Shown here piece after piece: positions 41,547 to 59,497 of a DNA stretch of 59,497 bases (positions within the stretch are counted from its first letter, which is position 1; each line of letters starts with the position of its first letter). The notes under the pieces were generated by a model. The model was not told the DNA's origin. It was given only the letters and a program-made list of their open reading frames with translations, and did no database searches. This stretch comes from an uncultured Eubacteriales bacterium. GTDB taxonomy: Bacteria > Bacillota > Clostridia > Oscillospirales > Acutalibacteraceae. Made by a program: the position numbers and the translations under genes. The stretch spans positions 1 to 59,497 of the forward strand of contig ONIC01000002.1 of assembly GCA_900317815.1 (NCBI GenBank), in the 5' to 3' direction.

Positions 41547-44156
41547 ATGATCCGTACATCAAGAAAAACGATTGCATTGCTTATGTCATTGGTGATCCTG
41601 TTTGTGATGACATTTGTGTCTCAGAAAGCAGAGGCATCGGTAATTACCGATGAGTCTTCCGGCTCCACACAGGTCGGAGATTTCGCCGGTCTGTACAAGT
41701 ATATTACTCAGGACGGTGATGTCGAGATCGAGCTTACTAAGGACATTGCTTATTCTACGGAAACTTTCTGCGATTTCCTTTTTACTGTAGGGAGCGGTAC
41801 AAAAGTGCTTGACCTTAAGGGACATTCAATCGAATGTGACAATCTTGCAGAAGGAGACAATTCCTCTACGATGTTTGTAATACAGAAAGACTGTTCACTT
41901 ATTATAAATGATACAGTCGGCGGAGGCGAGATCAGATATGACGGTCCAAGGATCGTAAATTCCTATTTTTCGCTGCGTGACGTTTTCAGAGTACATCAGG
42001 GCTCTCTGACAATAAACGGCGGTTCAATCTATGCCGGTCACGCTGACGACCGTCAGCAGGGCCGCTATGCTCAGGTAAACGGATTTGCTGTAGTAAACAC
42101 TGGTACATTTACTATGAACGGAGGAATGCTCGAAGGCAGAGGTTATTACAATAATGCCCAAAATCCGTTCCCTTGCGCTGCGCTTCAGGCATCAGGCGGT
42201 ATGTCCGTTATAAATGATGGAGAGATAGTCGGCGTTGGCAATGCCGACGCTGTCAAGAAAGGCGGAAGCGGAAAAATGGCTGTTTATTCGGGCTATTTCC
42301 ACACCGAAACATATAAATACATAATAGTAGCCTCTCAATGGGTAAATAACGGCGAACTTAAGCCTTCTACTCAAAAATATGATCTTTTAGGCGGATTAAA
42401 AGGCAGGATAGGCGCAGAGATCGGTGAGAAACCAACCTTTGACACGCTTGTATATATCGACGGAGAACTTGTGGAGAATGTGTACGATTTTTACGATTAC
42501 AGAGTTCCCGTAAAGATCAAGCCGCTCGAAAATCGCAGCACAGGTTTCCTCATGGTAAACGGAAGTATGCCAAGCGAACCTATTGATTGGAACAGAGCAG
42601 ATCCGCTGCCTGTTCATGTCTCTCTCGATAATCATTATTTTATGTGGCAAACTGATAACGACAAATTCGGAGATCACAGCTGCGATTTCAAAGTCACGAT
42701 AATTGAAAAAGATACGAATAAAATAATCACATCCGAAGTTATTAATTACAATATGAGAAGTATCATCAAGAGTGATGATATTTATGAATTCGATTTTTCA
42801 AAATTCTTGACTAACGGCATTAAGACTTTATTAAAAACAGGGAAAGAATATGTTCTTCACTTCTACCTTGACGAACATTGGAAGAGCAACGAAGAGTACA
42901 ATATACGTACAGAATACCCCCAGACCAAGAACGGATATGTGGTACTTCACATTACAGAACCGAAGATCTTGGATAAGGTAGAAATGAATATAGATGTTCC
43001 CGTAAATGGCAAGACTCCAAAAGATTTAGCTTTCCATGGTGATTATGATGTCTGCTCGCTCTCTCTGGAAAGCTGGACTCAATGTGAAGGTTCATATCCT
43101 GTGCTTGACGATTCAACAGCTTTCGTGGGAGGCAAGGAATATCAGGTCAGAATAAGTGCTGCTCCTGCTCCGGGATACGCTTTTGACAATAAAACAGAAT
43201 TCCGGATCAATGGCAAGCTTATGGGAAACTATATAGGAAGAACTGCCAACAGTGCGGGTATTCAGGCACGATTCTTAGCAGAGTCGGAGAATGTACTTGA
43301 TGAAGTTTCCTGTGTTATTACGCCCCCGAAGGCGGGAGAACATCCTGACAACAACCCTGTATCGAGCGAACCTTCAAAGTATACGTTCGAGTTCCATAAA
43401 TGGTATCTGAACGAAGAACCCTATCCAAACCTGACCAAGGAGGATGTTTTTGAGAAGAATAAGAAATACACCGTCAGACTTTTTGTAAACACAGTCGGAA
43501 ACAATGCTTTGAGTAATGATACCACATTCTATATTAATGGTATAAAAGCAAGTTTTTTCAACGCTCTGACCCCATCAAGAGTAGGTATTCAGGCATCTAT
43601 GACTGCGAAGGATATTCAGCAGCTTACAGAAGCAGGAGCACTTATCTACAAACCACAGGTAGGGGAGGCTCTTGACTTTGAACCGATATCTTCCGAAAAA
43701 TCAATGTATGACGTTTTCCTTGTATCCTGGGCTGTAAAAAACGGAGACTCGTTTGAAACATTGGAAGCCGGCGAGTTCTTTAAACCCGGAAAGGTATACC
43801 GTATAGAGATACGTTTTGAACCATCGGACGATTATATTATCGATGAGAATACAGAGTTGTACCTCAATGGTGATAAATGTCCCCGGAGCGGCGAAGCTGG
43901 ACTACTCAGAAAAGAGTTTGAGATGGAAGACATCTCAAGCGGGATCTACGGCGACATAGACGGAGACGGCTATATAACGGCAAACGATGCTCTGTTGATA
44001 CTGCGGTCAAGCGCAGGGATGGAAACACTGTCTTCAGAACAGGAGACTGCTGCTGATATCGACTGCGACGGCTCGATCACAGCGAACGATGCACTTGATG
44101 TACTTCGCTACAGTGCAGGATTAAGCAGTCACGAAAATGTCGGAAAACCTATTTAG
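41547..44156 (+). CDS. Secreted dockerin-containing protein with beta-helix-like N-terminus
   Basis: This 869-residue protein has signal peptide MIRTSRKTIALLMSLVILFVMTFVSQKAEA. The N-terminal domain (about 40-270) looks like a right-handed beta-helix (LDLKGHSIECD, LTINGGSIYAG, FTMNGGMLEG, SVINDGEIVGVG). Two or three related beta-domains follow (repeated YxVRI/YTVRL, FxINGK, and a glycine-rich loop, about 480-790). The C-terminus is a type I dockerin (about 800-860) with two calcium loops, GDIDGDGYITANDALLILR and ADIDCDGSITANDALDVLRY. Dockerins bind cohesins in cellulosomes or on the cell surface. No known catalytic domain is recognised. GAAGGAG lies about 10 bases before the ATG. Confidence 0.87.
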   Translation: MIRTSRKTIALLMSLVILFVMTFVSQKAEASVITDESSGSTQVGDFAGLYKYITQDGDVEIELTKDIAYSTETFCDFLFTVGSGTKVLDLKGHSIECDNLAEGDNSSTMFVIQKDCSLIINDTVGGGEIRYDGPRIVNSYFSLRDVFRVHQGSLTINGGSIYAGHADDRQQGRYAQVNGFAVVNTGTFTMNGGMLEGRGYYNNAQNPFPCAALQASGGMSVINDGEIVGVGNADAVKKGGSGKMAVYSGYFHTETYKYIIVASQWVNNGELKPSTQKYDLLGGLKGRIGAEIGEKPTFDTLVYIDGELVENVYDFYDYRVPVKIKPLENRSTGFLMVNGSMPSEPIDWNRADPLPVHVSLDNHYFMWQTDNDKFGDHSCDFKVTIIEKDTNKIITSEVINYNMRSIIKSDDIYEFDFSKFLTNGIKTLLKTGKEYVLHFYLDEHWKSNEEYNIRTEYPQTKNGYVVLHITEPKILDKVEMNIDVPVNGKTPKDLAFHGDYDVCSLSLESWTQCEGSYPVLDDSTAFVGGKEYQVRISAAPAPGYAFDNKTEFRINGKLMGNYIGRTANSAGIQARFLAESENVLDEVSCVITPPKAGEHPDNNPVSSEPSKYTFEFHKWYLNEEPYPNLTKEDVFEKNKKYTVRLFVNTVGNNALSNDTTFYINGIKASFFNALTPSRVGIQASMTAKDIQQLTEAGALIYKPQVGEALDFEPISSEKSMYDVFLVSWAVKNGDSFETLEAGEFFKPGKVYRIEIRFEPSDDYIIDENTELYLNGDKCPRSGEAGLLRKEFEMEDISSGIYGDIDGDGYITANDALLILRSSAGMETLSSEQETAADIDCDGSITANDALDVLRYSAGLSSHENVGKPI

Positions 44157-46033: not shown

Positions 46034-46171
46034 TTTTTCAATATTATGTCAATATGTTATATTCACACATTTCAGAATTGTGCAAATAGTAGAAATTGAA
46101 ATAATACGACTGAATCTAACAAAATTGTAACTAAAAATCGCTTTTTCTTGCATATAAAAGTGATTCTATAC

Positions 46172-46202
46172 TGGACATTTATTGGACAGCATTTGATATA
46201 AT
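46172..46202 (+). promoter_or_regulatory. Promoter of the CstA gene with TGGACA direct repeat
   Basis: TGGACA occurs at 46172-46177 and 46183-46188, 11 bp apart, and a perfect TATAAT lies at 46197-46202, 8 bp after the second copy. If the first copy is the -35 box, the spacer is 19 bp, which is suboptimal and suggests activator help. The same arrangement occurs at 59002-59032. Confidence 0.78.
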
Positions 46203-46264: not shown

Positions 46265-47683
46265 ATGATTTCTTTGATTTTATCGATGGTAGTACTCACT
46301 GTAGGTTATATCATTTACGGAAGGCTAACCGAAAAAGTTTTCTCACCCGATGATCGGGAAACACCTGCAGTCAGGATCAACGACGGTGTAGATTGTGTAC
46401 CAATGAAGACATGGAAGGCTTTTCTTGTACAGCTTCTGAATATTGCAGGAACAGGACCCATCTTTGGCGCTCTGATGGGAGCTTGTTTCGGTCCGATCGT
46501 TTTCTTGTGGATAGTTTTCGGAGCAGTTCTCGGCGGCGCAGTTCACGATTATATGACGGGTATGATCTCGTCACGTCATGACGGAAAGTCGATCGCCGAA
46601 CTTTCGGGAATATATCTCGGATCTGCCGCAAAGTGGATAATGCGTGTGTTCTCAGTAGTATTGCTGCTTCTGACCGGCACAGTCTTTGTAAACAGCCCGG
46701 CAGCGCTTCTTGCACGTCTCACTCCGAATATGCTCGGAACCACCTTTTGGATTGTTGTCATACTTATATACTACATCATCGCCACACTTGTTCCGATTGA
46801 TAAGGTGATAGGGAAGATATATCCTGTTTTCGGCATAATTCTTATTATTATGGCAGTCAGTATAATTGTCGGTATATTTGTCGGCGGATATACCGTTCCC
46901 GAAATATCGCTTAAAAATCTACATCCCGATGAACTTCCGGTATGGCCGTTTATGTTTATAACAGTTGCCTGCGGCGCCATCTCGGGATTCCACGCTACAC
47001 AGTCACCTATGATCGCCAAGTGCATCACATCCGAAAGAGAGGGACGCAAAGTCTTTTACGGAGCGATGATAGCTGAATCCGTCATTGCGCTTGTCTGGGC
47101 TGCAGGCGGAGTGGCCTTTTACGGAACGACTCATCTTCTCGGAGATGCGCTTTCGAAGCTCGGACAGTCAGGTGTGGTATATGATATATCGACGGGAATG
47201 CTCGGAATGGTCGGCGGAGTACTTGCTATAGTCGGCGTTGTTGTATGCCCGATAACATCGGGTGATACGGCATTCAGAAGTGCACGTCTGATACTTGCAG
47301 AGTGGACTAAGCTCGATCAGAAGTCGATCAAAAACCGTCTTATCATTACTATCCCTTTGCTAGGTATCGGAGCACTGCTGACACAGCTCGATTTTAATGT
47401 TCTTTGGAGATACTTTTCCTGGAGTAATCAGACACTTGCGATGGTCTCCCTTTGGGTGGCCACTTCATATCTGATAAGAACGAACAAAAATAAGATTTCT
47501 TCACTTCTGACAGCAATTCCCGCATCGTTTATGTCCGCTGTCAGTCTGACCTATATTTTGCTCGCAGACGAGGGATTCCGTTTGTCAACTACGATCGCTT
47601 ATCCCTGCGGAATTGTTTTTGCAGCAGTTCTTTTTGTGATCTATCTTGTTCTAATGATCAGACACAGATCGGCAGGAAAATAA
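46265..47683 (+). CDS. cstA: CstA family (carbon starvation/pyruvate) transporter
   Basis: This 472-residue membrane protein with about 12 helices belongs to the CstA family. Diagnostic segments are YGRLTEKVFSPDDRETPAVRINDGVDCVPMK near the N-terminus, LLNIAGTGPIFGALMGACFGPIVFLWIVFGAVLGGAVHDYMTGMIS (about 58-103), and GVVVCPITSGDTAFRSARLILAEW. E. coli members BtsT and CstA take up pyruvate and peptides. BtsT expression is controlled by a LytS-type two-component system, and a LytS-like kinase gene lies 1 kb downstream here. The short form is usual in Firmicutes. The repeat-bearing promoter at 46172 drives it. Confidence 0.92.
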   Translation: MISLILSMVVLTVGYIIYGRLTEKVFSPDDRETPAVRINDGVDCVPMKTWKAFLVQLLNIAGTGPIFGALMGACFGPIVFLWIVFGAVLGGAVHDYMTGMISSRHDGKSIAELSGIYLGSAAKWIMRVFSVVLLLLTGTVFVNSPAALLARLTPNMLGTTFWIVVILIYYIIATLVPIDKVIGKIYPVFGIILIIMAVSIIVGIFVGGYTVPEISLKNLHPDELPVWPFMFITVACGAISGFHATQSPMIAKCITSEREGRKVFYGAMIAESVIALVWAAGGVAFYGTTHLLGDALSKLGQSGVVYDISTGMLGMVGGVLAIVGVVVCPITSGDTAFRSARLILAEWTKLDQKSIKNRLIITIPLLGIGALLTQLDFNVLWRYFSWSNQTLAMVSLWVATSYLIRTNKNKISSLLTAIPASFMSAVSLTYILLADEGFRLSTTIAYPCGIVFAAVLFVIYLVLMIRHRSAGK

Positions 47684-47743
47684 TAACGAATAAAAAGAGA
47701 AGGTTTTCATTTAAGATACATTTTTTTAGTATTCGAAAGGAAT

Positions 47744-48000
47744 ATGCGTAAACAAATGAAAAGTCACAAGCATTCACCTCTTATTCTCGTGCTTGCTGCA
47801 TCAGTCTTACTTTCGTCGGCGGCTTGCAGCACAGAGACTACACCGAGTTTAGGTACTTCCGTACCCGGCAATGGAAAATGGATAGACTCCAGCATTAGAG
47901 GTATGGTCACCGATGAATCAGAGATCCGCTTGCAGGATGACTTTGCAGCTGCTGCAAACAAGGAATATGACAACTCAGCAATCAACTGTTTCAAATTTAG
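47744..48000 (+). pseudogene. N-terminal remnant of an M13-peptidase-like lipoprotein
   Basis: The frame opens with a lipoprotein signal (LILVLAASVLLSSAAC) and a mature start KWIDSSIRGMVTDESEIRLQDDFAAAANKEY. That resembles the beginning of exported M13 family metallopeptidases, which have DDF...NK shortly after the lipobox. Homology stops near 47985 and the frame ends at 48049 after about 20 unrelated residues; the zinc motif HExxH is absent. The rest of the gene has been lost, and the sequence passes directly into a membrane-protein remnant in another frame. Confidence 0.6.
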
Positions 48001-48575
48001 GAAGTATTATACTTGGTATTTGCATTTTTCTTTCAGTATACGCCGATGAGTTCAGCTCGCGCTCAATGCAATGTATTATCGGCAGAGGGCTTTCAAGAGC
48101 AAAACTTCAAGCGGCAAAGTTCATTGACTGCATCTTACTAACCATTAACAGCTATCTTATTTTGGTTATTTTGGTCTTTCTTCTGAACCTTATTTTCGGT
48201 ACAAATCTTCTGCCTTCCGAGAAGACCATGATTTACGCCGCATTTTTAACGAGCGCCCTCAAGGCGATCGGATATGGTACGATAAGCGCTATATTCCTCT
48301 ATAAGTCTTCAAATGTTGCTGGAGCGACCGTTGTAGATATTCTGCTTTATATGGTGCTGTTTTTATTTATTGATATGATTGCCTCGTCTGCACCGCTTGC
48401 ACCGATAATTATGATCCACAGAAACTGCTTTACAGGCAGAGTGTATCAGATATATTCACGCATTGTGCTCGGACAGCCATTTATAGGTATACTTGTAAAC
48501 ACGCTTGTAATTTATGTGGGCGGCGCACTTGGTATCTCCATGCTCGTCTTCAGAAAGAGAGAACTGGAATTTTGA
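47913..48575 (+). pseudogene. C-terminal remnant of an ABC-2-type permease
   Basis: From about 47985 an open frame encodes LGSIILGICIFLSVYADEFSSRSMQCIIGRGLSRAKLQAAKFIDC and five membrane helices, ending in LVFRKRELEF. This is the usual second part of an ABC-2 permease (YADEF.S.SMQ..IGRGLSR.K). The first helix and N-terminus are missing. The frame is open back to an ATG at 47913, but those residues come from the M13-like remnant read in the wrong frame. No ATPase gene adjoins it. It is most likely the 3' end left by a deletion, although a short product could still be made. Confidence 0.65.
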
Positions 48576-48649
48576 TCGAACGATTCATCACGTACAGAGG
48601 ACATCTCTGTGTGCGGTGAATAAACTTGTTTTACGGGTGGTGTATAAGG

Positions 48650-49936
48650 ATGAATTTATCACAAGAGCTGGTAACCAACTGCGCTATCCTGTTTCCTGTT
48701 TTTATGCAGATGGCAGGATTGACAGCCGCTGTCCTGGCAGACCCGTATATCAGTAAAAGAAACAGGAAAGTTATGATAACCATCACGGCGCTTTTGTTCG
48801 TGCTGATTTCACAAAATATCGCTGACTTTCTCCTACAGAAAACAGACCCTGTAAGATTTCCTTCTGCTATACAGATACGGATTTTTACATCTGTTATCGG
48901 ATATACTGTGCGTCCAATCATATTGCTTTTATTCTGTAAAATAATCAGCCCGGATCGCAGATACCGTGCCGTATGGATATTACTGATTATAAATACTGCG
49001 GTACATTGCTCGGCTTTTTTCAGTCATATCTGCTTCTGGATAGACGAAAACAATCATTATCAGGGCGGTGTACTAAACAGACTTTGTCTATGGATAAGCA
49101 TTGGACTGTTAGCTTATTTTTTATATCTTTGCATCTACGAATACAGAATAAACAGCAGGATAAGCTTCTGGATACCTATCTTAAACATCCTGCTTATCAT
49201 AGCATCAATCGTAATGGACAACTGCGTTGGTGCTACAGAGCAGATAGTTTCATATCTTACAATAGCTATGGTAAGTGCCTGCTTGTTTTATTACATCTGG
49301 CTTCATATGCAGTTTGCCTATGCGTATGAGCAGGATCTCAAGGCTGCTCAGCGTATCCAGATAATGCGCACTCAGATACAACCCCATTTTCTTTTCAATA
49401 CGATAACGACCTTCAGAGCGCTCTCTTTACAGAACCCTCAGGCTGCATACGATCTTGCGGGAAAGTTCGGACAATATTTGCGTCAGAATATAGACTCTCT
49501 CGACACTTCGGGTATGATTCCCTTTGAGAAAGAGCTTGAACATACGAAACTCTATTCCGAGATCGAAATGGTTAGATTTGAAAATATCCATGTGGAATAT
49601 GACATAAAGGATCTTGATTTTGAGATACCTCCGCTTACGATCCAGCCGATAGTTGAAAATGCCATCCGCCATGGAGTGCGCATCCGTGATAAAGGGATAG
49701 TCCGTATCTCATCAAAGAGATCCGGGAATGCACATGAAATAATCATCAAGGACAACGGAATAGGATTTGACCTTGACGAAATTGAAAAAGGCAGCAGGGA
49801 ACATATAGGAATAAAAAATGTTAAGGAACGAATTGAAAAAATGAGTCTCGGAACAATGACTGTAGAAAGCAACCCTGACAAGGGTACGATTGTTACTATA
49901 CGTATACCGGTTTCAAAGAAGGAGGAAAGCGATTGA
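48650..49936 (+). CDS. LytS-like membrane sensor histidine kinase
   Basis: This 428-residue protein has six or seven membrane helices (residues 8-225), a short coiled segment, a His_kinase domain (QIMRTQIQPHFLFNTITTFRAL, His about residue 254) and a GHKL ATPase domain. The ATPase part carries PLTIQPIVENAIRHGV (N box), IIKDNGIGFD (G1) and GIKNVKERIE (G2). It belongs to the LytS/YehU/YpdA group that senses small molecules or envelope state. ATG 48650 follows GGGTGGTG by 7 bases. The stop overlaps the response regulator start. Its position near the CstA transporter suggests pyruvate or carbon sensing by analogy with BtsS, an inference. Confidence 0.92.
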   Translation: MNLSQELVTNCAILFPVFMQMAGLTAAVLADPYISKRNRKVMITITALLFVLISQNIADFLLQKTDPVRFPSAIQIRIFTSVIGYTVRPIILLLFCKIISPDRRYRAVWILLIINTAVHCSAFFSHICFWIDENNHYQGGVLNRLCLWISIGLLAYFLYLCIYEYRINSRISFWIPILNILLIIASIVMDNCVGATEQIVSYLTIAMVSACLFYYIWLHMQFAYAYEQDLKAAQRIQIMRTQIQPHFLFNTITTFRALSLQNPQAAYDLAGKFGQYLRQNIDSLDTSGMIPFEKELEHTKLYSEIEMVRFENIHVEYDIKDLDFEIPPLTIQPIVENAIRHGVRIRDKGIVRISSKRSGNAHEIIIKDNGIGFDLDEIEKGSREHIGIKNVKERIEKMSLGTMTVESNPDKGTIVTIRIPVSKKEESD

Positions 49937-50751
49937 GAGCAATATGTGTAGATGATGAGAGGATAATTCTTGAAGACACTGTAAAAATGTGTTTGTCTAT
50001 GGATCAGATTGATCGTGTCCAGGGATTCATAAGATCAAAGGACGCTTTGGATTATTTAGAACAAAATCCCGTCGATGTAGCGCTGCTCGATATAAATATG
50101 CCGGATATGCGAGGGATAGAGCTTGCAAAAAGGGTAAAGGACATATCCCCGAACACAGATGTGATATTCCTCACAGGATATTCGCAATATGCGCTGGAGG
50201 CATTCTCTGTCAGAGCATCAGGGTATCTTTTAAAACCTGTAACAAAAGAAATGCTCTCGGAAGAACTGCAATACATTCAGAGGCAAAAAATTAAAAATGA
50301 AGCAAACAACGGTATGAGCCACATATTTATCCGAACATTCGGAAACTTTGATGTTTTTGTAGACGGCAAGCCTATCGGCTTTAAACAAACGAAATGCAAA
50401 GAACTTCTTGCTTACCTCGTAGATCGACAGGGCAGTACAGTTACTCGAAAAGAGGCCTTTTCCATATTGTGGGAAAACCGCCTTTATGACAGAAGTATGC
50501 AGAAACAGTTTGATGTTATTATTAGAGACCTACGTACTACGCTGCGCAATAACGGCATTACCGAGATTTTTTCTATGAGCAGAGGTACTATGCGTGTATG
50601 TCCCGAAACTTTTATCTGTGATATGTACCGTTTTTTCGAAGGCGATGTTGCGACGGTCAATTCTTATCGCGGCGAGTATATGAACACCTACGAATGGGCC
50701 AATATTACAGAAAGCCGTGTGACTATCGTCCAGCAGGAAGATAAGAAATAA
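49933..50751 (+). CDS. Response regulator with C-terminal winged-helix domain
   Basis: This 272-residue protein starts at TTG 49933, overlapping the kinase stop. The receiver domain (1-120) has VDDER, the phospho-acceptor Asp in VDVALLDINMPD (about residue 55), Thr in FLTGYSQYALEAF and Lys in YLLKPV. The C-terminal part (about 132-250, IFIRTFGNFDVFVDGKPIGFKQTKCKELLAYLVDRQGSTVTRKEAFSILW) is an OmpR/SARP-type winged helix. LytS-family kinases usually pair with LytTR regulators, so this output domain is unusual. It is the candidate binder of the TGGACA repeats at 46172 and 59002. Confidence 0.9.
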   Translation: MRAICVDDERIILEDTVKMCLSMDQIDRVQGFIRSKDALDYLEQNPVDVALLDINMPDMRGIELAKRVKDISPNTDVIFLTGYSQYALEAFSVRASGYLLKPVTKEMLSEELQYIQRQKIKNEANNGMSHIFIRTFGNFDVFVDGKPIGFKQTKCKELLAYLVDRQGSTVTRKEAFSILWENRLYDRSMQKQFDVIIRDLRTTLRNNGITEIFSMSRGTMRVCPETFICDMYRFFEGDVATVNSYRGEYMNTYEWANITESRVTIVQQEDKK

Positions 50752-50765
50752 GTTCGGAGGAAACT

Positions 50766-51254
50766 ATGGAGACAAAACTAAGGCGTTACCGCGGATCGCT
50801 CGTAACAAACGGAGGATGTATAATCGCTTTTGGTCTGTGGAGCGCACTAAAATTCGTGATTACCTTTATAACTGATCCCGATTTGTTCAATTACGAAATC
50901 AATGATCATGCTGAAAGCTCGGAATACGCTCTTATTCTTAAAATCATGACGGTCATATTTGTTGCATCTATCATAGCTTTGATCCTGTATATTCACATTT
51001 ACATTGGAAGATCTTCATACCGCGAAGGGCTAAGCGAAAAAACAGGCAGCTTCTACCTCGTAATTACATTTATTGTAGCAGTGATAGTTTTATTCGAAAT
51101 GGTTCTGTACCTGGTTCCGCGTGATAATATTGAAGAAACTTTTATATCATTGCTTGCTGCATTCTTCATTGATCTTACAAAGGAACTGCTATTGGTAGAC
51201 ACATTGTATGTGGCAGTCATGTCAAGACATCTTGCAAAAAAACTCGCAAAGTGA
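50766..51254 (+). CDS. Membrane protein of unknown function
   Basis: This 162-residue protein has four predicted helices (near residues 15-36, 58-80, 92-114 and 123-155) and ends in a basic tail SRHLAKKLAK. I do not recognise a family. The ATG follows TTCGGAGG, 14 bp after the response regulator stop, and the next gene begins 9 bp later. It is therefore in one operon with the two-component system and the DUF6765 gene. Confidence 0.7.
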   Translation: METKLRRYRGSLVTNGGCIIAFGLWSALKFVITFITDPDLFNYEINDHAESSEYALILKIMTVIFVASIIALILYIHIYIGRSSYREGLSEKTGSFYLVITFIVAVIVLFEMVLYLVPRDNIEETFISLLAAFFIDLTKELLLVDTLYVAVMSRHLAKKLAK

Positions 51255-51263
51255 GGTGATGAT

Positions 51264-52436
51264 ATGCAGGAGGATTTTCATTATTATGCGACCTATTGCG
51301 CCGCATTTCTCGCTGGCTTTGACCACAAACAAAGTATGGAAATATGTTACAGCGCTCAGCTCGTAGATCTTTGCAGCAGAACATTCCTTAAACGGATAAA
51401 AGCTCCTCTCTCGGCTGCTACAACACAACTTCAGCTTGAAATGATGGACGCTCGGACAGATCCTGTCGGACTTCAGGATATAACGAGAATCTGGTCGTCT
51501 TTTCATTTTCTGCCTTATAATCTTAACGCAAAGGTCAAAAAAGGAACAAGCAGACTTTATCGCAGTAAATATAGGCTGATATGTGATACAAACGGTGAAC
51601 TGCTTTCCGACACGATAGATCTTGCATTTGGCAAAGGACTTCCGGCAGCAGGTATCGCCATGCATATTCTTGCCGATACATGGGCGCACCGTTACTTTGC
51701 GGGAACTCCGTCTCTCGTTATCAATAATACAAATTATTATTTCTATGAGCTCATAAAAAAAAATAACGGTGATTACGATGAGATACCGATATCATTCCGC
51801 CACAGTCCATCGCAGCCTGACGATCTTGATGAACATAAATATACTAATAGTCTGTACCAGAGTAACGAACGGTCGATCATGAATCTCGGACATGGCAGAG
51901 CAGGGCACCTTCCCGACTACAGCTTCATACGCTACAAGTATCTTCCGGCCTGGGGAAATTACGAGGAAATTGTTAAGGACAATCCTCACGATTATTACCA
52001 TGCATTCTGTCAGATGATATATGCTTTGAAGTATCTGAGAGAAGAAATCCCGGAATTCAAGCTTGATACATACGCATGGGATGCTGCGGCTCCATACAAA
52101 TCGGAGATCTTGGAGATAATTGAAAAGCGTCAGCTTAACGCCTCGATGGACTGGAAAGCGTTCGGAGAAAAGTTGTCCGGAGAGACCATTGAACCGTTCA
52201 AGCTTTCAAAATATGAAGAGGATTACATCCGCACAGAAAAAAACAACAAAAGCGAAACCTATCTCGGAAAATTCTTTCTTGCGGCTATGGCTCAGAAAAG
52301 TATGGTAACTAACAAAATCTTTAAGTCCCGAAACCTTCTCGCAGGATACTCGATAGACTTTGACCAAAAAGGATTCAAAGGTATCAAGGACTATAAAATG
52401 CTTGTTGATCACCTGAGAAAGGAGTGGGGAGAATGA
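51264..52436 (+). CDS. DUF6765 family protein
   Basis: This 390-residue cytosolic protein begins MQEDFHYYATYCAAFLAGFDHKQSMEICYSAQLVDLCSRTFL, matching what is now called DUF6765. An all-helical region carries AGIAMHILADTWAHRYFAG (about residues 131-149), whose His and Asp residues recall zinc-dependent phospholipase C-like or HD-type metal sites, plus FHFLPYN and HDYYHAFCQMIYALKYL. The activity is not known. It starts 9 bp after the preceding gene behind GAGGTGATG, and its stop overlaps the next gene start. Confidence 0.78.
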   Translation: MQEDFHYYATYCAAFLAGFDHKQSMEICYSAQLVDLCSRTFLKRIKAPLSAATTQLQLEMMDARTDPVGLQDITRIWSSFHFLPYNLNAKVKKGTSRLYRSKYRLICDTNGELLSDTIDLAFGKGLPAAGIAMHILADTWAHRYFAGTPSLVINNTNYYFYELIKKNNGDYDEIPISFRHSPSQPDDLDEHKYTNSLYQSNERSIMNLGHGRAGHLPDYSFIRYKYLPAWGNYEEIVKDNPHDYYHAFCQMIYALKYLREEIPEFKLDTYAWDAAAPYKSEILEIIEKRQLNASMDWKAFGEKLSGETIEPFKLSKYEEDYIRTEKNNKSETYLGKFFLAAMAQKSMVTNKIFKSRNLLAGYSIDFDQKGFKGIKDYKMLVDHLRKEWGE

Positions 52437-52972
52437 CAAAACTACAGCGTGTCAAAGGAGTTGCTGTCGGATTGATAATGCTTATTCTCGGTACGTCAAT
52501 GGCGCTTATCGGCGCGGACGCGGCTTTTTTGATAATGGGTCTCCTTGCTTTGACATTGAATATAAAAGGGATCAAAATGTTGATTTACTATTTCAATATG
52601 GCGCGGCACATGGTCGGAGGAGATCAGATACTTGTACGAGGATTAATACTCTTCGATCTCGGAACATTCACAGCAACGCTGACTCAGTTCCCGCAGCTCT
52701 ATATAATGGGATACCTCCTTACCGTCCACGCTTTCAGCGGTATTATAGACGTAATGAGAGCATTAGAGGCAAAGCACTTCGATTCGCCTTCCTGGAAGCT
52801 TAATCTTTCAACGGGAGTTATAAATATTATAATCGGTCTTTCCTGTGTCGTTTTTATAAACTCTATGAGCACTGCGGTCTACATCTACAGTGCAGGTATC
52901 ATTTACTCTGCGATAATACGCATTGTAACATCTTTCAGGAAAACTGCGGTAGTGTATATAACTCCATCGTAG
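52433..52972 (+). CDS. DUF308 (HdeD-like) membrane protein
   Basis: This 179-residue protein has six predicted helices arranged as tandem hairpins (VKGVAVGLIMLILGTSMALIG, AAFLIMGLLALTLNIKGIKMLIYYF, LSTGVINIIIGLSCVVFI, AVYIYSAGIIYSAIIRIV), the pattern of DUF308/HdeD proteins. ATG 52433 overlaps the DUF6765 stop (ATGA) and lies 7 bases after AAGGAG; an in-frame GTG at 52424 overlaps that site. HdeD in E. coli is linked to acid resistance. Here its role is unknown. The STAS gene follows after 71 bp. Confidence 0.72.
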   Translation: MTKLQRVKGVAVGLIMLILGTSMALIGADAAFLIMGLLALTLNIKGIKMLIYYFNMARHMVGGDQILVRGLILFDLGTFTATLTQFPQLYIMGYLLTVHAFSGIIDVMRALEAKHFDSPSWKLNLSTGVINIIIGLSCVVFINSMSTAVYIYSAGIIYSAIIRIVTSFRKTAVVYITPS

Positions 52973-53043
52973 GCAGATAAACTTTCTGTTTACAGAGTAG
53001 TATCAATGATATTCGATATAAATAAAAAAAGGAGGGATCTTTT

Positions 53044-53340
53044 ATGAAGATCAATAAAACAATAGAAAACAACACGACTGTCATATCGCTTGAAGGCAGA
53101 CTTGACACCATTACCTCTCCCGAACTTTCTTGGGAACTTGACAGTTTGCTTGACGAAACAAAGAAACTCATTTTCGACTTATCAAAGCTTGATTATATTT
53201 CTTCGTCAGGTCTCAGAGTGCTTCTTTCCGCTCAAAAAGCGATGAAGGACAAGGGTACAATGATAGTCAAAAACGCATCGGAAACCGTAATGGAGATCTT
53301 TGAGATCACAGGATTTTCCGATATACTTACAATTGAATGA
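53044..53340 (+). CDS. STAS-domain anti-sigma factor antagonist (paralogue)
   Basis: This 98-residue STAS protein has the same length as the one at 10738 and about 69% identity to it by hand alignment. The phospho-site block YISSSGLRVLLSAQKAM and the C-terminal MEIFEITGF.DILTIE are conserved. It is preceded by AGGAGGG and followed 10 bp later by a divergent ATPase-like gene. The order (STAS then ATPase) is the reverse of the first pair. Located just before the NHLM export genes, it may switch expression or activity of that system; this is inferred from position. Confidence 0.9.
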   Translation: MKINKTIENNTTVISLEGRLDTITSPELSWELDSLLDETKKLIFDLSKLDYISSSGLRVLLSAQKAMKDKGTMIVKNASETVMEIFEITGFSDILTIE

Positions 53341-53350
53341 GGTGTTTGAT

Positions 53351-53950
53351 ATGAAAACGGAAAAGATCTATGTTAATAACCGCGGAGCAGGCAGGGATGC
53401 TGTGCTCGATGAAATGGAGAGGTTCTCTGACAGTCTCAGTATTACAAAAAAGAACAAGCTTCATCTCCGTCTTCTTACCGAGGAGATGCTCGGAATGGTG
53501 GCAGAGCTCGGCGGAGATTTTGACGCTGAATTCTGGGCTGAAAACGACGGAAATATATGCCGACTTTCTCTTGAAGCCGAGATCGAAAAGATGAGCATAG
53601 AAAAGCGTGAAGCACTGCTTGATGTATCTACAACCGGAGAGAACGCCGCTGCCGTGGGCTTTATGGGAAAGCTCCGCAATATATTTGAGCTATGCTGCCT
53701 GAGCTATAAAAACGGCGAGGGATACGATGCATATCTAAGATCCTCTGCAAGCACATATTTTCCGACAAGCATTACTTCTGCGAACCCCTATTACTTCAAT
53801 CTGGAGCTTAGCAAGCTCGATTATATCAACCACGATGAAACACCTCAATGGGATGAACTCGAAAAGTCAATCGTTGCCAATATTGCAGATGACATTTCTG
53901 TCGGAGTCAAAGGGGACTCGGTAGAGTTTGTAATCACAAAAAAGCTTTGA
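53351..53950 (+). CDS. Degenerate GHKL-ATPase-like partner of the STAS protein
   Basis: This 199-residue protein starts MKTEKIYVNNRGAGRDAVLDEMERFSDSL, like anti-sigma kinases. The helix expected to hold the N box reads LHLRLLTEEMLGMVAELG and lacks the Asn that binds Mg-ATP. No DxGxG box is evident, although GFMGKLRNIFE sits where the G2 box should be. A C-terminal extension of about 70 residues (YYFNLELSKLDYINHDETPQWDELEKSIVANIADDISVGVKGDSVEFVITKKL) is not typical of RsbW. It probably binds the STAS protein at 53044 without phosphorylating it. GAGGTG precedes ATG 53351. Similar STAS-linked proteins exist in Ruminococcus, as I recall. Confidence 0.68.
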   Translation: MKTEKIYVNNRGAGRDAVLDEMERFSDSLSITKKNKLHLRLLTEEMLGMVAELGGDFDAEFWAENDGNICRLSLEAEIEKMSIEKREALLDVSTTGENAAAVGFMGKLRNIFELCCLSYKNGEGYDAYLRSSASTYFPTSITSANPYYFNLELSKLDYINHDETPQWDELEKSIVANIADDISVGVKGDSVEFVITKKL

Positions 53951-53985
53951 GCGTTTCAGATAAGTAAAGATAGGAGGGGATCAAC

Positions 53986-54447
53986 TTGAGTAAGAATTTA
54001 TTCCGCGATAATTATACAGATAAGCTATCCTCGCCGGAGCAGCTTGACTCTTATATAAGGATCATAAATCCCCAGCTGTGGATATTACTCGTTGTATTAA
54101 TAATCGTACTTATCAATACCATGGTCTGGACATTCGCTGAAAATCACTCGATAAGAGTGGCTACAGTAGCTATGGCTCACGATGGGGAGTTAACTGTTTA
54201 TGTCAGAGAACAAGACAAGGTTCTTTTCGGAAATCTCGGTGAAGAAATCGGATTTGTTGAAAATGAATCTAAAGTTACCTTCACAGATTTGTTGTCCATT
54301 TCGGACTCACCTGTCGAAATAACGGACGAAACAGATCATTATCTTCTGCATTTCGGATTACTGAATGTCGGAGACTGGGTATATGAGTTCAATTTTAAAG
54401 CGGATATTCCTGACGGAGTTTATTCGGGGTACTTGAGAAATATTTAA
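53986..54447 (+). CDS. Short NHLM-type HlyD-like secretion protein
   Basis: This 153-residue protein begins MSKNLFRDNYTDKLSSPEQLDSYIRIINPQLWILLVVLIIVLINTMVWTF. The KLSSPEQLD and the following membrane helix are characteristic of NHLM bacteriocin secretion proteins (HlyD group). The extracellular part is only about 100 residues (SIRVATVAMAHDGELTVYV...GEEIGFVENESKVTFTDLLSI, then VYEFNFKADIPDGVYSGYLR), far shorter than the usual 250 or more, and lacks a coiled-coil hairpin. The start is TTG 53986 behind AGGAGGGG. It precedes the two ABC exporters by 16 bp and should form the extracytoplasmic part of the exporter. Confidence 0.82.
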   Translation: MSKNLFRDNYTDKLSSPEQLDSYIRIINPQLWILLVVLIIVLINTMVWTFAENHSIRVATVAMAHDGELTVYVREQDKVLFGNLGEEIGFVENESKVTFTDLLSISDSPVEITDETDHYLLHFGLLNVGDWVYEFNFKADIPDGVYSGYLRNI

Positions 54448-54463
54448 GAAGCGGGGTGACAGC

Positions 54464-56653
54464 TTGAAAAACAATAAAATCAAACGTCCCAAGCTCAAAG
54501 GCGTAGCAAATGTTCCAATGATAATGCAAATGGAATCTGTGGAGTGCGGCGCCGCTTCCCTCGGAATGATACTTGCATATTACGGAAAGTGGATCTCGCT
54601 TGAAATGCTGCGCGAGGACTGCGATATTTCCCGCGATGGATCTACTGCCGCAAATCTGTTGAAGGCTGCAAGAAATTACGGCCTTGAAGCAAGCGCATAC
54701 CGTTTTGAGCCTGAAGAGATACGTACCGAAGGGCAGTTTCCATGTATTATCCACTGGAACTTCAATCATTTTGTCGTTTTAAAAGGATTTATCGGAAACC
54801 GTGCGTATATAAATGACCCCGCACTCGGAGAATACTACGTTTCAGCCGAAACATTTGACAAATCGTTTACAGGAGTATGCATGCTTTTTGAGCCTTCCGA
54901 AAGCTTTACTCAGACAGGAAGGAAGAAAAGCATTCTTTCATTCATGCAAAAACGATTAAAAAATACTGCGCCCGCACTTATTCTGGCGATAGTTATATCC
55001 CTGCTTACCATGATGGTAGGTATCATAAATCCCGAGATAATGCAGCGTCTTCTCGATTCAATCTCTCAATCGAGAAATCTAACACCTTACTTAAAATATC
55101 TCGCCGTTTTAATTATCACAGGCTTAATATCTGTTGTGGTAGAGTGGATAAAATCGGTCTATCTATTAAAGATGGATGGAAAGATGTCTATACTCGGAAA
55201 CACTCGTTTTATGTGGAAGCTGCTTCATCTTCCCGTTGGTTTCTTTTCGCAGAGACTTGCCGGTGATATACAGCAGCGTCAGAGCGAGAACGCAGATATA
55301 TCAAGAATAATGATAGAAACTCTCGCTCCGATCTTGATGAACACTGCAGCGATGTTCTTTTACCTCATTATGATGGTTACCTACAGCGTCAGTCTTGCCA
55401 TGATCGGAATATTAGCTGTTGCGGCGAATCTAACAATCTCGATCTTACTTACACGAAGACGTATCTCTCTTACACGTGTACTTATGAAGGATGAGGGCGC
55501 ACTTTTCAGTATGACCGCTTCGGGAATAGAAATGATGGATACAATAAAAACCAGTGGCGCGGAATCAGCTTGGTTTGAAAAATGGAGCGGAACACTCGCA
55601 AACGTCGGAAACGGAAAAGCTGCGATCGAAAATCTGAATGTTTATGTAGGTGCGCTTCCAAATCTGGTCATGCAGCTCTCAAACGCAGTTATCATAGTTA
55701 TCGGAGCTTTACTTGTAATAAAGGGTGATTTCACGATCGGTATGCTGACTGCATTCCAGGGCTTCTTCTCGTCATTCTTATCACCTGTTAATTCACTTAT
55801 ACAGACAGGTCAAACGATGCAAGAGCTCAGCCGCAAAACAGAGCGTATAGATGATATAATGGAATACAGCGACGATCCGAATGCTGTCATGGAAGGATCG
55901 GAAGAATACAACGGTGACCCTGTAGAGGAAAAACTTAAAGGCAGGATCGAGGTCAAGAACATTACATTTGGATATTCTAAACTCAAGCCTGCGATGCTAA
56001 ATAATATCAGCTTTACAATAGAGGCGGGCAAGAGCCTGGCTCTCGTTGGTGCATCGGGCTGCGGAAAATCAACGATCGGAAAACTTATATCGGGACTGAT
56101 AAATCCGTGGAGCGGCGAGATACTATTCGATGGGAAAGCCCGCTCCGAGATTCCGCGCAGTATGATGACAGCGTCGCTATCGGTAATCGACCAAAATGTT
56201 ATTATGTTTACGGGAACGATCTCGGATAATATCAAAATGTGGGATCGCTCGATAGAAAGCTACGATGTTACACTCGCTGCAAGAGATGCGGGAGTTCATA
56301 ATATGATCATGCATCGTCCGGGAGGTTACAACGCATTGATATCTCCGGGCGGCAGCAATATCTCCGGTGGTCAGAAGCAAGGGATCGAGATTGCTCGCGC
56401 TTTAGCTCAAGATCCTTCAATTGTTATCCTCGATGAGGCTACTTCCGCTCTCGACACAAAAACCGAAGACAGCGTTATGAAGGCTATAGCCAGCAGGGGA
56501 ATTACAAGGATCATAATAGCACACAGGCTTTCCACTATCAGAGACTGCGATGAGATACTTGTTCTCGATAACGGCGTAATTGCCGAGCGAGGAACTCACG
56601 ATGAACTGATCGCACGAAACGGAATTTATAAGAAACTGGTATCCAACGAATGA
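54464..56653 (+). CDS. NHLM-type peptidase/permease/ATPase ABC exporter (C39 peptidase)
   Basis: This 729-residue protein has an N-terminal C39 peptidase domain (15-140) with Cys in MESVECGAASLGMI, His in IIHWNFNHFVVLKGF and Asp in YINDPALGEYYV. Six membrane helices follow (about 160-450), then an ABC ATPase with Walker A VGASGCGKST, signature ISGGQKQG, Walker B IVILDEATSALD and H-loop His in IIAHRLS. C39 exporters cut leader peptides after Gly-Gly and export the rest. A double-glycine peptide lies at 59097, so substrate and enzyme sit in one neighbourhood. The start is TTG 54464 behind GGGGTGACAG. The next ABC gene follows 9 bp later. Confidence 0.95.
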   Translation: MKNNKIKRPKLKGVANVPMIMQMESVECGAASLGMILAYYGKWISLEMLREDCDISRDGSTAANLLKAARNYGLEASAYRFEPEEIRTEGQFPCIIHWNFNHFVVLKGFIGNRAYINDPALGEYYVSAETFDKSFTGVCMLFEPSESFTQTGRKKSILSFMQKRLKNTAPALILAIVISLLTMMVGIINPEIMQRLLDSISQSRNLTPYLKYLAVLIITGLISVVVEWIKSVYLLKMDGKMSILGNTRFMWKLLHLPVGFFSQRLAGDIQQRQSENADISRIMIETLAPILMNTAAMFFYLIMMVTYSVSLAMIGILAVAANLTISILLTRRRISLTRVLMKDEGALFSMTASGIEMMDTIKTSGAESAWFEKWSGTLANVGNGKAAIENLNVYVGALPNLVMQLSNAVIIVIGALLVIKGDFTIGMLTAFQGFFSSFLSPVNSLIQTGQTMQELSRKTERIDDIMEYSDDPNAVMEGSEEYNGDPVEEKLKGRIEVKNITFGYSKLKPAMLNNISFTIEAGKSLALVGASGCGKSTIGKLISGLINPWSGEILFDGKARSEIPRSMMTASLSVIDQNVIMFTGTISDNIKMWDRSIESYDVTLAARDAGVHNMIMHRPGGYNALISPGGSNISGGQKQGIEIARALAQDPSIVILDEATSALDTKTEDSVMKAIASRGITRIIIAHRLSTIRDCDEILVLDNGVIAERGTHDELIARNGIYKKLVSNE

Positions 56654-56662
56654 GGTGATCAA

Positions 56663-58852
56663 TTGAGTTGGTTTGAATCACAGATCAAACAGCGCCTTAT
56701 CAATGACGCTGACGATCTATCGGATGCATTTACCGATATTTCCCGCTCCGTAATGAGCGACAAACATAATTTTGTATACAAGAGCCGCGGTCGTATCGAG
56801 GAAAATGCCGTCAACGAGATGCTTCATTATTTTGGGGAGAAGCCTGTAACAATTCCTAATGATATAAAAGATCTCAGAGGAAGAATTGATTACGCTACAG
56901 CGCCTTACGGTATTATGAGCCGAAGGATCAAGCTTACAAAAGGATGGTACCACGATGCCTGTGGCGTCATGATAACGCGATTGAAGCAAAGCGGAAAGGC
57001 AGTGACTCTTATTCCCGGGAAAGTCACCGGATATCGTTTTTATGACGGAGAGCTGATGAAATATGTAAAAATCACTCACAGCAACAGCGATATGCTCGAT
57101 GAGGATGCTTATTTGTTCTATAAGCCGCTTCCGGATAATGACTTTACCATAACGAGACTGCTGCAATATATCCATAAGTTTATGAGCCGTTCGGACATTA
57201 TACTTTGGTTGATTATGTGTATATCCTCCGTCTCATTCGCATTCAATGTACCCGAGATCGCACTGGTCATTTTCAGAGATATAGTACCGATGAACGAAGA
57301 GGGAATCCTGCCCGCTGCGTGCTTCTGGCTTATCGGTATCGTTATAAGCAGCTATCTTATTGATCTTCAAAAAAATGTCGTAACAAAAAAAATGAGTCTC
57401 AAGGCAAGCTCCCGAATTCAAGCGGCAGGAATGATGCAGCTTCTCGATCTTCCGCGCAGCTTTTTTCAGGAACACAGTCCCGGTGATCTTGCTTCCCGTA
57501 TCAATCTGCTCGGAACACTTACCGAAACAACAGTCGAAGCACTCTCCGTTTTTGCATACGTTTTAATTACTATCATCATATGCATTCATAAGACGTGGAC
57601 TAATTTCCCGATTTTTGTACACACTGTTATTGTTATCAGTGTCTATACTCTTATCACTTATGCGATCTCTATTGTTTTGAATGCAGGTCTCATCTCAAAA
57701 CGCCTTGAGGCATATACAAATGAAAGCGGTGTAACGTATGATACGATACTCGGTATACAGAAGATACGTCTGACAGGCTCGGAGAGCAGAGCGTTCTCTC
57801 GATGGGGACGAGCATTTTCGGAGCGGGCAGCAATCGAGTATGCACCAAAGCTCAGGATTACTCTTGTAAGAATTGCTCCTGTAGTCCTCGCTTTTGTCGG
57901 AATGTTTGAAGTCTATTCCATTATATTCAGAGAAGCATTCATAGATAAATTGGTCGTGGCAGATTTTTATTCATTTATCGTTGCATACGGAATGCTTATG
58001 GCGGCGCTTACAATGCTGACAAACACTGCTGAGAAAGTTGCATCTATAAAGCCTCTCGTCGATTTGATAAGCCCTATCCTCAATGCAAAACGTGAGCTTT
58101 CGGCAAATGATCATACAGATTGCTTTATCAGCGGGACTATCGAGCTTTCTCATGTGTCATTCCGCTACAAAGACGATCAGCCCGATGTCATCCAGGACCT
58201 GTCGCTGAAGATCAATAGAGGAGACTATATCGGTATAGTCGGCACAACAGGATGCGGAAAGTCAACGCTTATCCGCCTTATGACGGGAATAGAAAAACCG
58301 AGAATGGGCGCGGTCTATTACGACGGTACAGATATCAATAATATTGCTCCTCGGTCGCTTCATAAAAACACGGGCATTGTTGAACAAAACGGAAGACTCT
58401 TTCAAGGCAGCATAATCTCGAATATCCGCATCGTTGCTCCCGATATCACAAAAGAGGAAATTTGGGATGTTCTCGAAAAGGCAGGTGTTGCCGATGACAT
58501 CAGAGAAATGCCAATGGGTATTCACACTATTATAACGGAAGGCGACGGAGGTCTTTCGGGAGGACAAAGACAACGAATAGTTATCGCACGCGCTCTGGCT
58601 CATAAACCGAAAATACTCTTCTTTGACGAAGCTACAAGTGCGCTCGATAATATCACTCAAAAAGTGATCTCCGAAACACTGGACTCGCTCGATTGTACAA
58701 GGGTTGTTATCGCTCACCGACTTTCAACGGTCAAAAATTGCAAGCGCATAATAGTTATGAACGAAGGAAAGATAATCGAATCAGGAACATACGATCAACT
58801 GCTTGCTAAAAAAGGCGCTTTTGCAGAGCTTGCAGCTAAGCAAATGGTTTAA
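56663..58852 (+). CDS. NHLM-type ABC exporter, permease/ATPase without peptidase
   Basis: This 729-residue protein, by chance the same length as its neighbour, has an N-terminal domain of about 170 residues with no C39 Cys (VSWFESQ in style, SRRIKLTKGWYHDACGVMITRLKQSGKAVTLIPG). Six membrane helices (about 175-460) and an ABC ATPase follow: Walker A VGTTGCGKST, signature LSGGQRQR, Walker B ILFFDEATSALD. It matches the second ATPase of NHLM systems, which probably pairs with the first as a heterodimer. The start is TTG 56663 behind GAGGTGATC. A 240-bp gap with the shared promoter follows it. Confidence 0.93.
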   Translation: MSWFESQIKQRLINDADDLSDAFTDISRSVMSDKHNFVYKSRGRIEENAVNEMLHYFGEKPVTIPNDIKDLRGRIDYATAPYGIMSRRIKLTKGWYHDACGVMITRLKQSGKAVTLIPGKVTGYRFYDGELMKYVKITHSNSDMLDEDAYLFYKPLPDNDFTITRLLQYIHKFMSRSDIILWLIMCISSVSFAFNVPEIALVIFRDIVPMNEEGILPAACFWLIGIVISSYLIDLQKNVVTKKMSLKASSRIQAAGMMQLLDLPRSFFQEHSPGDLASRINLLGTLTETTVEALSVFAYVLITIIICIHKTWTNFPIFVHTVIVISVYTLITYAISIVLNAGLISKRLEAYTNESGVTYDTILGIQKIRLTGSESRAFSRWGRAFSERAAIEYAPKLRITLVRIAPVVLAFVGMFEVYSIIFREAFIDKLVVADFYSFIVAYGMLMAALTMLTNTAEKVASIKPLVDLISPILNAKRELSANDHTDCFISGTIELSHVSFRYKDDQPDVIQDLSLKINRGDYIGIVGTTGCGKSTLIRLMTGIEKPRMGAVYYDGTDINNIAPRSLHKNTGIVEQNGRLFQGSIISNIRIVAPDITKEEIWDVLEKAGVADDIREMPMGIHTIITEGDGGLSGGQRQRIVIARALAHKPKILFFDEATSALDNITQKVISETLDSLDCTRVVIAHRLSTVKNCKRIIVMNEGKIIESGTYDQLLAKKGAFAELAAKQMV

Positions 58853-59001
58853 CAACTCTTTACACAATTAACCTGTATATTTATAAGCTGTATTTGTGTG
58901 AAATTTGGATATCTTGCACAAACTCTTTTTATAATTACAAAATCGTAATAATAATATTAACATTTTATTCATAGAAAAAGCATTATTTTGGCTTTTAACA
59001 C

Positions 59002-59032
59002 TGGACATTTACTGGACAGCGTATGATACAAT
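59002..59032 (+). promoter_or_regulatory. Promoter of the double-glycine peptide with TGGACA direct repeat
   Basis: TGGACA at 59002-59007 and 59013-59018 (11 bp apart) is followed after 8 bp by TACAAT (59027-59032). Spacing and much of the intervening sequence match the CstA promoter at 46172-46202. The coding start is about 65 bp downstream. Confidence 0.75.
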
Positions 59033-59096: not shown

Positions 59097-59261
59097 ATGG
59101 CAGATAAGAAGCAGCAGGAGCTTGAGGCTCGCAAGGAAAAACGTGAAGACAAAAAGCTCGAACTCGAAGATCTTGATGCAGAGGTAAGCGGCGGAAGCAT
59201 TGCAAATGTTGACTACACCAAAACAGGCGAGATCACAAAGAAGATCCAGAAAAAGATCTGA
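59097..59261 (+). CDS. Double-glycine leader peptide (54 residues), putative exported peptide precursor
   Basis: This small protein has a charged 33-residue leader, MADKKQQELEARKEKREDKK then LELEDLDAEVSGG, ending in Gly-Gly. The C-terminal segment has 21 residues (SIANVDYTKTG... ending KKIQKKI), net positive and amphipathic. C39 peptidases cut directly after such Gly-Gly sites, and a C39 exporter is encoded at 54464. There is no Cys and no modification enzyme nearby, so it may be an unmodified bacteriocin or signal peptide. ATG 59097 follows GGAGGTG by about 6 bases; an in-frame GTG at 59073 is rejected. The shared promoter at 59002 drives it, and the Calx-beta gene follows 35 bp later. Confidence 0.8.
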   Translation: MADKKQQELEARKEKREDKKLELEDLDAEVSGGSIANVDYTKTGEITKKIQKKI

Positions 59262-59296: not shown

Positions 59297-59497
59297 ATGA
59301 AAGCGGCTCTGAAAAAGCTCTCTGCGTCCGTTCTTGCGGCAACGATGCTCCTTTCGTTTATCCCGACTGCGTATGCAGACGAGGCAATAAACAAGGAAAT
59401 GAGCACCTTTGACTTTAGTGCGTCCGATTATTCATTCAATGAGAATGACGGCACAGCGACTATCAAGATCAAGCGTGAGGGCACAGGAAACGCACCT
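59297..59497 (+). CDS. Secreted protein with Calx-beta-like domain, 3' end beyond window
   Basis: Only the first 67 residues are present. Signal peptide MKAALKKLSASVLAATMLLSFIPTAYA is followed by DEAINKEMSTFDFSASDYSFNENDGTATIKIKREGTGNA. The FxxxxYSxxENxGxxTIxIxRxG pattern is the first half of a Calx-beta domain, common in large surface adhesins. GAAAGG lies about 9 bases before ATG 59297. It is 35 bp after the double-glycine peptide without a terminator between, so the two are probably one transcript under the TGGACA-repeat promoter. Full length and anchoring are unknown. Confidence 0.78.
   Translation, partial: MKAALKKLSASVLAATMLLSFIPTAYADEAINKEMSTFDFSASDYSFNENDGTATIKIKREGTGNAP

Follow-up and report, generated by a model that had tools for sequence, protein, structure and literature searches.

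The window, that is, the whole stretch of 59,497 nucleotides analysed here, comes from an uncultured Eubacteriales bacterium of the family Acutalibacteraceae and carries a series of closely spaced genes, all on the + strand, from 46265 to 58852. The first of these (46265..47683), directly after the first of two candidate operators, encodes a CstA-family transporter of 472 aa (PF02554, E 9e-56). As the earlier note had it, a LytS-like kinase and its regulator lie between the two sites: a LytS-type sensor histidine kinase (48626..49936, + strand; PF06580 and PF02518), with tblastn matches in 68 of 108 loci, and a response regulator of 272 aa (49933..50751, + strand), consisting of a receiver, a SARP-like winged helix and a three-helix tail, which we propose as the binder of both operators. 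Downstream, on the same strand, are genes for a STAS-domain protein (53044..53340), a short protein (53986..54447), an NHLP-type export ABC transporter with a peptidase (transporter 1, 54464..56653; TIGR03796) and a second NHLP-type export ABC transporter (transporter 2, 56663..58852; TIGR03797). The second operator is followed by the gene of a 54-aa peptide with a double-glycine (VSGG) leader-like motif (59097..59261, + strand) and by the start of a protein with a signal-peptide-like N-terminus (59297..59497, + strand), which is cut by the contig end.

Measured against the NHLP peptide export system, transporter 1 scored 871 bits, over the TIGR03796 cut-off of 853, whereas transporter 2 reached 595 bits, under the TIGR03797 cut-off of 709, and the 53986 protein matched only the start of the HlyD-like subunit model, weakly (28.4 bits, where the cut-off is 156.2, over positions 1-47 of the 421 in the model). 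Near-full-length relatives of transporter 1 were found in three loci (L171, L204 and L138). The 54-aa peptide had no match in a Pfam search and is likely the substrate of the NHLP-type exporter. A scan of the + strand for terminators gave three matches, all within the CstA gene, and its yield was no higher than in shuffled sequences, so that a single transcript spanning 46265-58852 is only inferred. In one related genome (G004; L056:13216-13584), just short stretches resembling the HlyD-like protein and transporter 2 follow a DUF308 gene, which looks as though a deletion had removed the exporter. Between the CstA and kinase genes (47744-48575), two ORFs, one with a lipoprotein-like N-terminus (47744) and one permease-like (47913), overlap in different frames; a Pfam search gave no match for either, and the segment looks like gene remnants. 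A large exported protein is encoded at 41547-44156, with a C-terminus, GDIDGDGYITANDALLILR, that we take to resemble a dockerin.

The two sites, ACTGGACATTTATTGGACAG at 46170-46189 and ACTGGACATTTACTGGACAG at 59000-59019, differ by a single base, and a scan of the window bears out the near-identity from which this analysis started; of the positions given at that time, 46170 stands, and the start of site 2, written as 58999, was off by one base. Each site contains two TGGACA hexamers (46172-46177 and 46183-46188 in site 1; 59002-59007 and 59013-59018 in site 2), and the composite pattern TGGACA-N5-TGGACA-N8-TAYAAT starts at 46172 and 59002. Extended by a few bases, the candidate operators each read as two 11-bp direct repeats, TATACTGGACA TTTATTGGACA in operator 1 (46167..46188, + strand) and AACACTGGACA TTTACTGGACA in operator 2 (58997..59018, + strand). 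The predicted -10 elements, TATAAT (46197..46202, + strand; called from the sequence and from the logo of relatives, with a TGA in front that makes it an extended -10) and TACAAT (59027..59032, + strand; called from the sequence, likewise with TGA in front), are both separated by 8 bp from the 3' hexamer and by 19 bp from the 5' hexamer, just as the earlier note had observed. Its statement that the window holds no third copy also stands: allowing up to three mismatches, the site sequence matched at these two places only, and 100 dinucleotide shuffles of the window gave no match. Outside the site and the -10 element, the flanks of the two sites are unlike each other. Across the bacterium's own genome assembly (2,273,524 bases, 92% complete), the bare repeat TGGACA-N5-TGGACA occurs at the two window sites only, and the pattern read backwards has no match in the whole genome.

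A much larger set of sites emerged from related genomes. In the bacterium's own genome and 99 relatives, the bare repeat was found at 25 places in 18 genomes. At eight of these places TANNNT stands at N8, namely at both window sites, at every one of the five places in G057 and at one in G079. When 398 genomes of the family were searched with the composite pattern, 67 sites were detected in 15 genomes, against 2 sites for the backwards control in the same genomes. The sites are unevenly spread, with 17 in G216, 10 each in G296 and G356, five each in G057, G220 and G395, three each in G156 and G440, two each in G000 and G373, and one each in G132, G194, G204, G227 and G286. At E <= 1e-80, 15 of the 398 genomes likewise encode a relative of the 49933 regulator (50-62% identity), and 13 of these coincide with the site-bearing ones (Fisher 1.3e-20, a value uncorrected for kinship that overstates independence because the genomes are related). 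The E <= 1e-80 line was set post hoc; at E <= 1e-60, sites occur in 13 of 22 genomes. Sites are absent from the seven genomes with a weaker best relative (43-49% identity, E 1e-77 to 6e-65), and six hand-picked motif-free genomes from motif-positive genera have no close regulator (best E 2e-54 or worse).

The exceptions run in both directions. G242 and G388 carry the regulator and lack an exact site, G388 having one with a single mismatch; sites are present in G057 and G194, where a close regulator was not found, and in G057 the end of a LytS-type kinase lies at a contig end directly before one of them. Outside the 398 genomes, G004 encodes the closest regulator (71% identity), and its sole site, just after that gene, has two mismatches in the hexamers; in G079 a single exact site is present, and we could find no close regulator. 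At the level of the order, eight of the 394 genomes have the regulator at E <= 1e-75, among which G454, G486, G535 and G604 were new, and the composite pattern was then searched in 40 genomes, comprising these four, the four already known and 32 without a regulator match. Three of the four new regulator genomes carry sites and G604 has none; the four known ones (G021, G388, G242 and G004) have no composite site. Of the 32 genomes without a regulator match, a single one, G464, carries a site, next to which lie the kinase and no less than the first half of a regulator. Judged by these sequence comparisons, the TGGACA repeat and its -10 element form a regulon motif that is conserved in many Clostridia of the gut and rumen.

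Linkage was assessed in public genomes, where a scan yielded 80 regulator loci. Of these, 63 (L148-L210) were used, in which either the DNA-binding part is matched or a contig end truncates the locus, and 17 matching the receiver only were dropped. Judged by title, the loci are mostly from ruminant-gut MAGs; one title, Lachnospiraceae bacterium XBB2008 (L178), mentions neither MAG nor uncultured and probably denotes an isolate. The loci partly overlap with the genomes above, as L156 does with G388. Allowing no more than a single hexamer mismatch, at least one site is present in 46 of the 63 loci (63 sites in 882 kb), and the reversed sequences of the same loci contain none. Among the 17 loci that have no site under this rule, L152, L176, L178 and L200 contain the exact repeat, with TANNNT at N8 absent. 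Six loci have a same-strand site 58-338 bp upstream of the regulator, and in others the site lies about 1.1 kb upstream, before the preceding gene, or just downstream; in L154, L174, L181, L185 and L192 it directly precedes the regulator gene itself. This linkage, together with the co-occurrence across genomes, strongly supports the original suspicion that the promoters are of an activator-dependent type and that the 49933 regulator acts on them.

The spacing within these sites is tightly constrained. Among distinct TGGACA pairs in the 63 loci, 59 are set 11 bp apart, and no other distance up to 60 bp accounts for more than two. TANNNT falls at exactly N8 for 49 of the 60 distinct exact repeats, with further peaks at N3 (14/60), taken as the consensus TATGnT overlapping the real -10, and at N13 (8/60); across all fetched loci the N8 count is 102 of 115, a figure with some circularity in it, since the N8 pattern had itself served to fetch many of those loci. 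A logo built from 119 sites of all fetched loci reads TTTRY-TGGACA-TTTRY-TGGACA-N5-TGn-TAtaAT, that is, the 11-mer twice and an extended -10, in which the -10 letters T, A and T were fixed by selection. From the -10 to the start codon the median distance is 48 nt (quartiles 33 and 91; 103 of 117 ORF calls).

First genes behind the 119 sites were picked by a simple score, and some calls are surely wrong; an ORF was absent at two sites, and 14 of the remaining 117 ORFs were dropped for lying over 250 nt away or measuring under 50 aa. Among the 103 retained, the most frequent Pfam families were Response_reg (11), HAD (6), Flg_new_2, DUF3592 and Trans_reg_C (5 each), and SpoIIE, His_kinase, HATPase_c, HATPase_c_2, YkuD and Hydrolase (4 each), followed by SBP_bac_3, BPD_transp_1, SH3, LRR_5 and others, counts in which regulator genes are favoured by the choice of loci and related genomes repeat the same genes. 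Among the 89 targets that reach 150 aa, a crude rule detects a hydrophobic N-terminal stretch in 63, compared with 311 of 738 background ORFs. As far as sequence can tell, the targets include the kinase/regulator pair itself and often exported or envelope genes. Relatives of the STAS protein (18 of 108 loci) and of the protein encoded after it, which has no Pfam match (5 of 108 loci), recur near the regulator; in the window the two lie within 53044-53950. SpoIIE phosphatases occur among the targets. A partner-switching module may belong to the regulon.

Two themes suggested by the window do not extend to the regulon at large. A similar CstA occurs in only 2 of 108 loci, L164, where a 71% identical protein is encoded second after a site, behind a HAD gene, and L149, where no site precedes it, and pyruvate or CstA as a general theme was rejected. 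An ORF for a double-glycine peptide comes after a site in the window and likewise in L061 and L155, with a similar 88-aa one in L165; at 3 of 123 sites within 900 nt, compared with 18 of 2000 random places, the excess over background is at most weak, and this general theme was rejected as well. In G057 (L060:2028-2223), two divergent sites separate an alpha/beta-hydrolase gene from a GAF-domain ABC ATPase gene, the start of which is also found after sites in L140, L161 and L164.

The candidate regulator combines a receiver (PF00072), which precedes the DNA-binding domain, with a Trans_reg_C match of 23.8 bits, under the cut-off of 26.2; this match is present in 38 of 39 relatives. The receiver residues Asp53 (D53), Thr81 (T81) and Lys101 (K101) are invariant in 39 sequences, so the protein is probably phosphorylated. 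No BTAD match was obtained by Pfam in the 39 relatives at E <= 1. A LytTR domain is absent among the Pfam matches of both the window protein and the 39 relatives, which rules out a LytTR-type regulator, and NCBIfam LytR/BtsR matches to the window protein span the receiver only. When residues 126-272 were modelled alone (mean pLDDT 91.9), three C-terminal helices were predicted, and the first six places among the PDB matches went to EmbR and to AfsR activation complexes (TM by query 0.69-0.77, E 1.3e-6 to 1.2e-4), OmpR-family domains appearing from rank 7 (E 2e-3, TM by query at most 0.49 among the 50 matches listed). By target, OmpR-type single domains score 0.52-0.70, higher than SARPs, because they are shorter. 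For the full-length model, OmpR/PhoB regulators took the first ranks, and a profile search with the DNA-binding part found OmpR-type domains, weakly (E 0.004 or worse), and reached no SARP, so that the attempt to recognize a SARP by sequence profile failed. By E-value and TM by query, the predicted fold of the DNA-binding part is closest to the SARP activators AfsR and EmbR.

Several known systems share parts of this arrangement. PhoB-type direct repeats have an 11-bp period, and REC-wHTH-BTAD regulators (COG3947), in which a SARP-like domain comes after a receiver, are a possible parent family of the 49933 regulator, although its short tail has no Pfam BTAD match; an operator for COG3947 was not found among the literature matches listed. 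BtsSR, YpdAB and LytST are pyruvate systems whose regulators use LytTR domains; the window resembles them in having a LytS-type kinase with a CstA-family gene close by and differs in the absence of LytTR from the regulator. SARPs, as described with AfsR, bind direct repeats spaced 11 or 22 bp with the 3' copy 8 bp from the -10, the afs box overlapping the -35 while the SARP dimer engages sigma region 4 (PMC10936776). The window operators match this layout, with 11-bp direct repeats over the -35 and a gap of 8 bp between the 3' repeat and the -10, and the regulator shares with SARPs an OmpR-type winged-helix DNA-binding domain (ODB) and, with AfsR and EmbR, a predicted fold that includes the first helices of the following domain. 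Both the predicted fold and the operator geometry thus point to a SARP-like activator. The differences are that the DNA-binding domain is not N-terminal but follows the receiver, that three tail helices are predicted in place of the all-helical AfsR BTA domain with its seven helices (PMC10936776), and that the hosts are Clostridia rather than actinomycetes such as Streptomyces coelicolor, the source of AfsR, with a different hexamer.

We consider it very probable that the response regulator, with its LytS-type kinase, binds both operators and activates transcription in a SARP-like manner at sigma-A-type promoters; the motif, its spacing, co-occurrence, linkage and the predicted fold form the basis of this explanation, from which we infer binding, activation, phosphorylation and operon extent. 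The adjacent kinase would phosphorylate the regulator, which would bind TTTRYTGGACA twice as a side-by-side dimer, overlapping the -35 and ending 8 bp before the -10, and would substitute for a good -35 contact at a sigma-A-type -10, as SARP activators do. The transcript from site 1 would run from CstA through the kinase, the regulator and the STAS protein to the exporter, creating positive feedback, and that from site 2 would encode the small double-glycine peptide, the exporter's likely substrate. In relatives, the same code would be read at up to 17 promoters per genome, some driving the regulator or the kinase and many driving genes for proteins of the envelope or for export. The main competing possibility, which we regard as distinctly less probable, is that the repeats are bound by this regulator, which would then work as a conventional activator of the OmpR/PhoB family and not in a SARP-like way. 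It has the receiver and OmpR-type winged helix of that family, for which tandem direct-repeat binding is expected, and Trans_reg_C in 38 of 39 relatives, the profile matches to OmpR-type domains alone and the fold ranking of the full-length model speak for it, as does the binding of tandem direct repeats reported for PhoB of the OmpR family (PMC3348028). The isolated domain, however, has additional C-terminal helices and, by E-value and TM by query, matches AfsR and EmbR ahead of any OmpR-type domain, and the 8-bp distance is the rule stated for SARPs (PMC10936776).

That the motif is instead read by an alternative sigma factor, as the earlier note had allowed, or by another transcription factor travelling with the kinase/regulator locus is improbable. 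The exact sites without a detected close regulator in G057, G194 and G079 would fit such a reader, but most public loci have sites beside the regulator, and five of six close paralogs retain the downstream hexamer, the gap and the -10 before their own gene; a special sigma factor is made less likely by the -10 itself, TAtaAT preceded by TG and thus of the sigma-A type, and by the other element being a direct repeat tied to a response regulator. Marginally less probable again is a pyruvate-responsive LytS system controlling CstA in the manner of BtsSR, to which the position of CstA directly after site 1 and of its close homolog second after a site in L164 lend some weight. The missing LytTR domain opposes it, as do the listed targets, most of which are unrelated to CstA, and the pyruvate link is unsupported, a similar CstA being under a site in just one of the two loci, of 108 searched, that have it (L164, not L149). 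Chance similarity or local copying of a promoter, finally, would agree with there being only two copies in the bacterium's own genome, but we give it almost no credence, as it is contradicted by the comparison across genomes (67 sites, spread over 15 of them, and 2 in the control), by the absence of matches in 100 shuffles and by the differing flanks.

These observations provide an exact, genome-searchable operator and a probable regulator for a two-component family of ruminant-gut Clostridia, making target genes, many of them exported, predictable in uncultured species from sequence alone. They also suggest that SARP-type activation, described in actinomycetes, works in Clostridia too, under histidine-kinase control.

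The paralogs hint at a wider pattern. Six paralogs at 47-50% identity are encoded in G004, G006 and G021, and the five that have the downstream TGGACA, the 8-bp gap and the -10 before their own gene differ in the upstream half; the sixth has no such element. In an alignment of 10 proteins, the long-helix stretch QKQ-DV is shared by the window protein with two orthologs and three such paralogs, is altered in L264, L257 and L258, and is reduced to QKQ in L068. Near one distant relative we found TTTGTTGCGCTTTTGTTGCACT-N8-TATAAT, a wider form of which has one match each in 2 of 12 genomes; this is only suggestive, and the distant paralog may read TTGCRCT repeats with the same 8-bp gap. A more speculative extension, which we hold at somewhat less than even confidence, is that Clostridia possess a phosphorylation-controlled SARP-like family with a stripped-down activation domain and one promoter grammar, in which different paralogs use different hexamers, and that the local double-glycine peptide is a possible signal for the kinase. 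As for precedents of the motif, neither of its 17-base forms was found in the literature among the matches listed, and the 11-mer, in single copy, occurs inside a proposed LexA box of Leptospira (PMC3789691).
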